NCBI GenBank assembly: GCA_018715595.1 | Contig: DVLI01000026.1 | Coordinates: 129,966 to 193,965 of the forward strand | DNA length: 64,000 bases | Origin: Candidatus Caccoplasma merdavium | GTDB lineage: Bacteria > Bacteroidota > Bacteroidia > Bacteroidales > UBA11471 | Direction of reading: 5' to 3' | Part shown: one piece after another, positions 47,487-48,655 of the stretch | Numbering within the stretch: position 1 is the stretch's first letter | Layout: every line of letters begins with the position of its first letter | Program-made: the position numbers and the translations under genes | The notes under the pieces: model-generated | What the model was told of the DNA's origin: nothing | Database searches by the model: none | What the model saw: the letters and a program-made list of their open reading frames with translations, nothing else

Positions 47487-47520
47487 ATGCGAATTATTTG
47501 CAGATGCGAATTTTTCGCAT
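47487..47520 (+). promoter_or_regulatory. tandem 17-bp palindromic operator candidate upstream of the Fur-family gene
   Basis: Two abutting 17-mers begin with the same ATGCGAATT: 47487-47503 and 47504-47520. The second is a perfect 7-3-7 palindrome (ATGCGAA-TTT-TTCGCAT); the first has two mismatches in its right arm. The second fills the spacer between the candidate -33 and -7 elements, and the first covers the -33. Confidence 0.55.
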
Positions 47521-47528
47521 TAATATTG
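47497..47528 (+). promoter_or_regulatory. promoter of the Fur/QueD-like operon
   Basis: TTTG (47497-47500), 20 bases, then TAATATTG (47521-47528), one mismatch from the consensus. The leader would be only about 14 bases. The spacer is exactly the palindrome at 47504-47520. Confidence 0.4.
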
Positions 47529-47547: not shown

Positions 47548-47958
47548 ATGGAAACAATCGACAACATAAAGCTGGCAGGACTGAGAATAACCCCACAACG
47601 CAAGGCTGTGTATGAGGCGATGATGGAGTTGCGCCATGCGAGCATAGACGAAATAATAAAGAAAGTGCAGTCAAAAGACGGTGAAATGACCGTATCGACA
47701 ATATATCGCATACTCAACTCATTCTGCACGGCCAATCTGTTATCGAACATCTTCAATCCTGATGCAGGCAAAAGCTATTACGACATCACCGTCGCTGAAC
47801 ATCATCATGTATTCAAAGGTGAACAGGTAATGGATTACATGGACGACGAACTGACTGCCATGATAAGAAAATACTTGAAAAATAAGAATTTTGCATCGGA
47901 AGACATCGAAAAAGTACAGGTGCAAATAATTATAAATGAACCTAAGTCTAACCCCTAA
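47548..47958 (+). CDS. Fur-family metal-dependent transcriptional regulator
   Basis: The 136-aa protein has the N-terminal winged helix with LRITPQRKAVYEAM (12-25) and the recognition helix TVSTIYRILNSF (48-59). The dimerisation domain has the metal-site cluster HHH (85-87). It lacks the CxxC pairs that hold structural zinc in many Fur, Zur and PerR proteins. The metal or signal is not evident. An operator-like tandem repeat sits over its own promoter, so autoregulation is likely. Eleven bases separate it from a QueD-like gene, which is therefore the best candidate for a regulated partner. Confidence 0.9.
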   Translation: METIDNIKLAGLRITPQRKAVYEAMMELRHASIDEIIKKVQSKDGEMTVSTIYRILNSFCTANLLSNIFNPDAGKSYYDITVAEHHHVFKGEQVMDYMDDELTAMIRKYLKNKNFASEDIEKVQVQIIINEPKSNP

Positions 47959-48536: not shown

Positions 48537-48590
48537 TTGCTCGGACAATGAGTCTACGGTAATAAGACCGTGTATCGCAGAATGACAATG

Positions 48591-48625
48591 ACAGGCTGAA
48601 TAGTGATTTTTCACTATTCAGCCTG
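48591..48625 (+). terminator. terminator of the Fur/QueD-like operon
   Basis: Perfect 15-base arms (ACAGGCTGAATAGTG and complement) surround a T-rich loop, about 55 bases past the stop. The T run after the stem is weak. Confidence 0.6.
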
Positions 48626-48655
48626 TTCCTTTGCGTTTGCACGGCTTGTAACCAC

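Follow-up and report, generated by a model that had tools for sequence, protein, structure and literature searches.

A tandem operator predicted within the promoter of a PerR-like regulator gene and its PTPS partner in Candidatus Caccoplasma merdavium

The window analysed here is a 64,000-nucleotide stretch of the Candidatus Caccoplasma merdavium genome. At the locus of interest, a gene encoding a Fur-type protein is followed, after a gap of 11 bases, by a gene for a PTPS paralogue. The two genes are predicted to be co-transcribed as an operon. Two 17-base repeats lie directly upstream. Beyond the PTPS gene, a stem resembling an intrinsic terminator separates it from a convergent sppA-like gene. 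The features are listed in Table 1.

Table 1. Features of the regulator locus, with positions numbered from the first base of the window.
Feature	Position	Strand	Remarks
Predicted operator unit 1, ATGCGAATTATTTGCAG	47487..47503	+	Contains the −33 TTTG; kept upstream of L014, L015, L016, L064 and L010
Predicted operator unit 2, ATGCGAATTTTTCGCAT	47504..47520	+	Occupies the promoter spacer; perfect 7-3-7 palindrome, less well kept in L014, L016 and L064
−33-like TTTG, Bacteroidetes sigma-ABfr promoter	47497..47500	+	From sequence; same position in six loci
−7-like element TAATATTG (consensus TAnnTTTG)	47521..47528	+	Same register, or no more than 2 bases off, in orthologues
PerR-like Fur-family repressor (predicted), 136 aa, without CxxC pairs	47548..47958	+	Pfam, fold, ligands, tree
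PTPS (QueD-like) paralogue with C-terminal zinc ribbon, 188 aa	47970..48536	+	Pfam PTPS 2.2e-12; same operon in L014, L015, L016 and L064
Bidirectional intrinsic-terminator-like stem closing the operon	48590..48627	.	17-pair stem; T-rich tails on both strands

The sequence-only reading had described two abutting 17-mers upstream of the Fur-type gene. In that description the first unit covers the −33 element, and the second is a perfect palindrome filling the 20-base spacer, plus three bases. We confirmed these coordinates. All seven arm pairs match in unit 2, and five of seven match in unit 1. The 20 bases separating TTTG from TAATATTG (47501-47520) consist of CAG and unit 2. Bacteroidetes promoters used by sigma-ABfr carry TTTG near −33 and TAnnTTTG near −7 (PMC7366714). 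The TTTG and TAATATTG elements, with their 20-base spacing, fit this consensus; TAATATTG differs from TAnnTTTG by one base. There are 27 bases between the end of unit 2 and the ATG of the Fur-type gene at 47548. We scored the array as the sum of arm matches (12 of 14) and identities between units (14 of 17), which gives 26. Dinucleotide shuffling never reproduced this score, either for the intergenic region (0 of 2000) or for the whole window (0 of 40); the best value was 22. Together, the shuffles and the conservation in orthologues described below rule out a chance palindrome.

The regulator is rare. Five of 393 Bacteroidales genomes encode it at E up to 1e-22; one of the five (L012, in genome G171) falls in the sister clade discussed below, and another (L013, in G241) is truncated. 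It was absent from the own-genus genomes searched. A separate scan recovered orthologues from a Prevotellaceae MAG (L014, 72%), Bacteroides ilei (L015, 74%) and Paraprevotella clara (L016, 63%). L064 came to light when 399 genomes of the B. ilei family were screened. These four, and L010, come from genera other than that of the window. The same PTPS gene stands next after the regulator in L014, L015, L016 and L064, and a catalase gene takes this place in L010 and L011 (L065). At L013 (G241:C58, 1534-1762) the regulator gene is N-terminally truncated and has no operator, and the PTPS gene behind it is intact; this may be a decayed regulator or an assembly join.

Conservation of the repeats upstream of orthologues had been named beforehand as a test of the operator proposal. 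We compared six loci: the window, L014, L015, L016, L064 and L010. All six carry two 17-mers, with TTTG at offset 10 in unit 1 and a spacer of 18-20 bases. Across the 34-base array the orthologues are 53-82% identical to the window (mean pairwise identity 68%); the flanks are 28-43% identical. The repeats are thus conserved. Counts over the 24 half-sites (T 23, G 20, C 19, A/G 23, A 23, A 23) give TGCRAA, and T occupies position 8 in 16 of them. The best units share the consensus TGCRAAT-n-ATTYGCA, a 7-1-7 inverted repeat with an AATnATT core, as expected of a Fur-superfamily operator. The data support the two 17-mers as a predicted operator of the repressor type inside the promoter. They also bear out the idea of a regulator subfamily with an operator of its own, since the tandem boxes are kept upstream of five orthologues and the sister-clade box differs. 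Two observations count against the operator reading: L014, L016 and L064 have a poorly formed unit 2, and the catalase-linked L011/L065 has half-sites alone, without a clean palindrome.

Alternatively, the repeats might bind another regulator, or be an AT-rich promoter remnant, with the Fur-type protein acting elsewhere. Binding of the protein to the array is, after all, a prediction, and the conserved unit 1 includes the −33 TTTG, an element that would be retained on its own account. However, conservation extends past TTTG to both arms of the units. Furthermore, of the 393 Bacteroidales genomes, only G000 and G197 contain a mismatch-free tandem pattern, and both hold the regulator (hypergeometric probability of co-occurrence about 4e-5 to 8e-5). 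No such array was found at the four PTPS orthologues without regulator that were examined (L057-L060). Hence, we regard this explanation as very unlikely. At 2-3 mismatches, the cases inspected in other genomes were mostly coding sequence or a terminator. A two-mismatch tandem TGC box with a TAnnTTTG-like sequence was seen at L091 (G044:C41, about 1501-1532), ~60 bases ahead of a gene encoding a Tat-signal protein. It may be a real promoter site, and another target of such a regulator.

The regulator protein contains the Fur-superfamily domain (Pfam FUR PF01475, E 1.4e-18, 67.7 bits against a cut-off of 23.1). Its predicted model (pLDDT 87) has the two-domain fold and aligns with Fur 1mzb over 129 residues (Z 15.0, rmsd 2.6). 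The matches to Fur, Mur and Leptospira PerR are about equal (Z 14.5-15), and the fold therefore leaves the subtype undecided. There is a single cysteine (C60) in the 136 residues. Thus, the two CxxC pairs of the structural zinc site are absent, in agreement with the sequence-only reading. Alignment identifies the regulatory ligands as H30, D79, H85, H87 and D96, which are invariant in the sampled clade. They correspond to H37, D85, H91, H93 and D104 of Bacillus subtilis PerR. Asp, rather than Glu, at the last ligand position separates PerR and Irr from Fur, Zur, Mur and Nur, and CxxC pairs are also absent from Leptospira PerRA/PerRB and from Irr (PMC8638967). The suggestion that the subfamily might have its own metal found no support; the ligand set is that of an ordinary PerR, and loss of the CxxC pairs has precedent. 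Arg at the recognition-helix position is a mark of Fur, as opposed to PerR (PMC8638967). The window protein has R54 in recognition helix H4, and all 7 sampled clade members have Arg here rather than the Asn of PerR. Judged by its ligand set and ancestry, the regulator is best read as PerR-like.

The box had been thought unlike those of known Fur-family regulators. This was not borne out: its 7-1-7 AATnATT frame is the one found in Fur, PerR and Zur boxes. It also has the same form as the Streptomyces Nur box, tTGCaa-N5-ttGCAA (PMC3919588), which orthologue units such as TTGCAAATAATTTGCAT match. The protein could accordingly be a regulator of the Nur or Mur type, responding to nickel or manganese. 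Indeed, when the clade profile was compared with solved structures, the best match was Nur 3eyy (3.4e-14), which shares the STVYR helix motif. However, most of that match falls within the DNA-binding domain. The discriminating position, Asp 96 in this protein, is Glu in both Nur and Mur (PMC8638967), and no nickel or manganese gene is nearby. A Nur or Mur identity is thus unlikely.

We built a tree of 16 sequences, including the own-genome CxxC paralogues and B. subtilis PerR. The window protein groups with six others in a clade supported at 100/100, which is nested in a CxxC-less branch (100/98); those paralogues and B. subtilis PerR lie outside it. The seven sampled members precede a PTPS paralogue with a zinc ribbon in five cases and a catalase gene in two. 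The CxxC-less branch has six further members, among them the own-genome paralogue L009. These form a sister clade, and 6/6 precede rubrerythrin. Bacteroides PerR BT0215 stands before rubrerythrin BT0216 (PMC12596196), and this synteny links it to the sister clade. Sister-clade promoters carry TTAGAATTATTCTAA, and their boxes are TTAGAATnATTCTAA. At L068 the TTAGAAT boxes have the same tandem 17-base geometry; the L007 and L009 promoters contain the sister-clade box in one-mismatch or degenerate form. The recognition helix reads S-T-x-Y-R in the window clade and A-T-V-Y-N in the sister clade. ATVYN is thus found with TTAGAAT, and STxYR with TGCRAAT. Hence, helix and box have changed together, and we infer that the helix change is linked to the C of TGC. 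There are four Fur-family genes in the own genome. Two further genes of PerR type, L009/L052 (contig C5) and L050 (contig C20), each lie beside a rubrerythrin gene, one without and one with CxxC pairs.

The PTPS paralogue retains the His triad (H13, H26, H28), and lacks both the QueD Cys and the PTPS-III Glu. The QueD (PTPS-I) motif is CxxxHGH (PMC5041015). The window protein has AQYLHGH instead, and canonical QueD function was rejected on this ground. A canonical queD (CENLHGH, of the CExxHGH type) adjoins queE elsewhere in the own genome. Between genera the PTPS proteins are 76-96% identical with fourfold sites saturated, which indicates strong selection. Recent transfer was considered for the 90-96% identities and rejected, because fourfold sites are about 60-75% different. 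The paralogue is patchy in Bacteroidales (6/393 genomes), often occurring without the regulator. Its model (mean pLDDT 71) matches the PTPS, QueD and QueD2 folds.

The nature of this partner brings in the main rival explanation, control by zinc. A zinc-loaded, Zur-like repressor would act on its own gene and on a QueD2-like paralogue, which would be made under zinc shortage. A second queD (queD2) is predicted to be under Zur in certain bacteria (PMC9508795), and Acinetobacter baumannii QueD2 (7v0f) is among the best fold matches of the PTPS model. The zinc ribbon, the presence of the paralogue after five of the seven clade members, and the separate canonical queD also fit. Conversely, the sensory Cys of Zur is essential (C88 in Escherichia coli, C79 in Streptomyces coelicolor; PMC6103462). 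The equivalent position here is D79, and the sole Cys is C60. The catalase neighbours of two clade members and the rubrerythrin neighbours of the sister clade also argue against zinc. In addition, no zinc-uptake gene with the box was seen among own-genome sites at up to 1 mismatch. We give zinc control a real but minor chance of being correct.

The same search listed the other own-genome sites, as the sequence-only reading had proposed. At up to 1 mismatch, the only promoter containing the box is the regulator's own; the remaining sites are intragenic (xylA, a sugar-nucleotide epimerase and a SulP transporter). At up to 2 mismatches there are 39 sites, versus 3 for the reversed control. Since the sites at up to 1 mismatch lie inside genes, this excess may reflect coding words, and we do not claim a wider regulon. 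A genome-wide regulon was rejected for the same reason. Catalase was rejected as a target in the own genome, which contains no catalase gene. In five orthologue-bearing genomes, the motif matches inspected outside the regulator promoter were mostly intragenic. The confinement of the box to one own-genome promoter suggests that the regulator is a local autoregulator.

We assign a probability of about 0.6 to the following reading: the downstream gene encodes a PerR-like, metal-loaded repressor whose operator is the pair of 17-mers; the repressor controls its own operon and is released by peroxide or by loss of Fe/Mn. Two metal-loaded dimers, one per unit, would sit side by side on the array. With both the −33 TTTG and the spacer occupied in this way, RNA polymerase containing sigma-ABfr would be blocked. 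The block would repress both the regulator gene and its PTPS partner. Oxidation of its metal-binding histidines by H2O2, or Fe/Mn loss, would then free the repressor and turn the operon on. Consistent with this reading are an array beyond chance, its conserved register, the PerR ligands with their Asp, and the catalase or rubrerythrin neighbours of relatives. Several points speak against this reading. In the window the target would be a PTPS paralogue and not a gene for peroxide defence, and the own genome lacks catalase. Moreover, R54 is a Fur-type residue, and the best profile match is the nickel regulator Nur.

There is nothing exotic in the geometry, and the system as a whole is a genuine, if modest, variation on a known kind of switch. 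A long-standing question is how Fur-family proteins of similar structure recognise different DNA sequences (PMC3931707). Here, two sister clades represented in one genome differ at helix and box, and both keep the tandem 17-base promoter geometry. They form a natural pair for exchanging and testing a few substitutions. The operon would also place a strongly conserved, uncharacterised PTPS paralogue under a signal from metal or peroxide. More tentatively, a CxxC-less, peroxide-sensing PerR-type domain may have been joined to a Nur-like reading head through changes at a few residues of the recognition helix, which would leave each of the two sister regulators in one genome with a regulon of its own. 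The PTPS-zinc-ribbon protein under its control would then be a new stress-response enzyme. We consider this possible, and somewhat doubtful as a whole.

Four known systems invite comparison. Zur-controlled QueD2, in Acinetobacter and others, likewise pairs a Fur-family regulator with a second QueD-like protein. However, the window regulator lacks the Zur sensory Cys, and its PTPS partner has an added zinc ribbon and no QueD Cys. Nur of Streptomyces, a nickel-responsive Fur homologue, has the same 17-base box form and STVYR motif. Conversely, it has Glu at the discriminating ligand, its sequence is distant, and the window regulator has no nickel-related neighbour. PerRA and PerRB of Leptospira interrogans, atypical PerR proteins without a structural metal site, share the absent CxxC pairs and the PerR ligand set. 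One Leptospira structure (5nl9) is among the best matches of our model (Z 14.5). They differ in having Asn in the recognition helix, where the window protein has Arg, and in their boxes. Bacteroides PerR (BT0215) resembles the window regulator in its autoregulated promoter position and, to judge from sampled sister-clade members, in lacking CxxC pairs. The likeness is drawn from the sister-clade tree and synteny, and from the tandem 17-base boxes at L068. On the Bacteroides side, the box is TTAGAATnATTCTAA and the helix A-T-V-Y-N; in the window clade, TGCRAATnATTYGCA goes with S-T-x-Y-R and with a PTPS or catalase partner.
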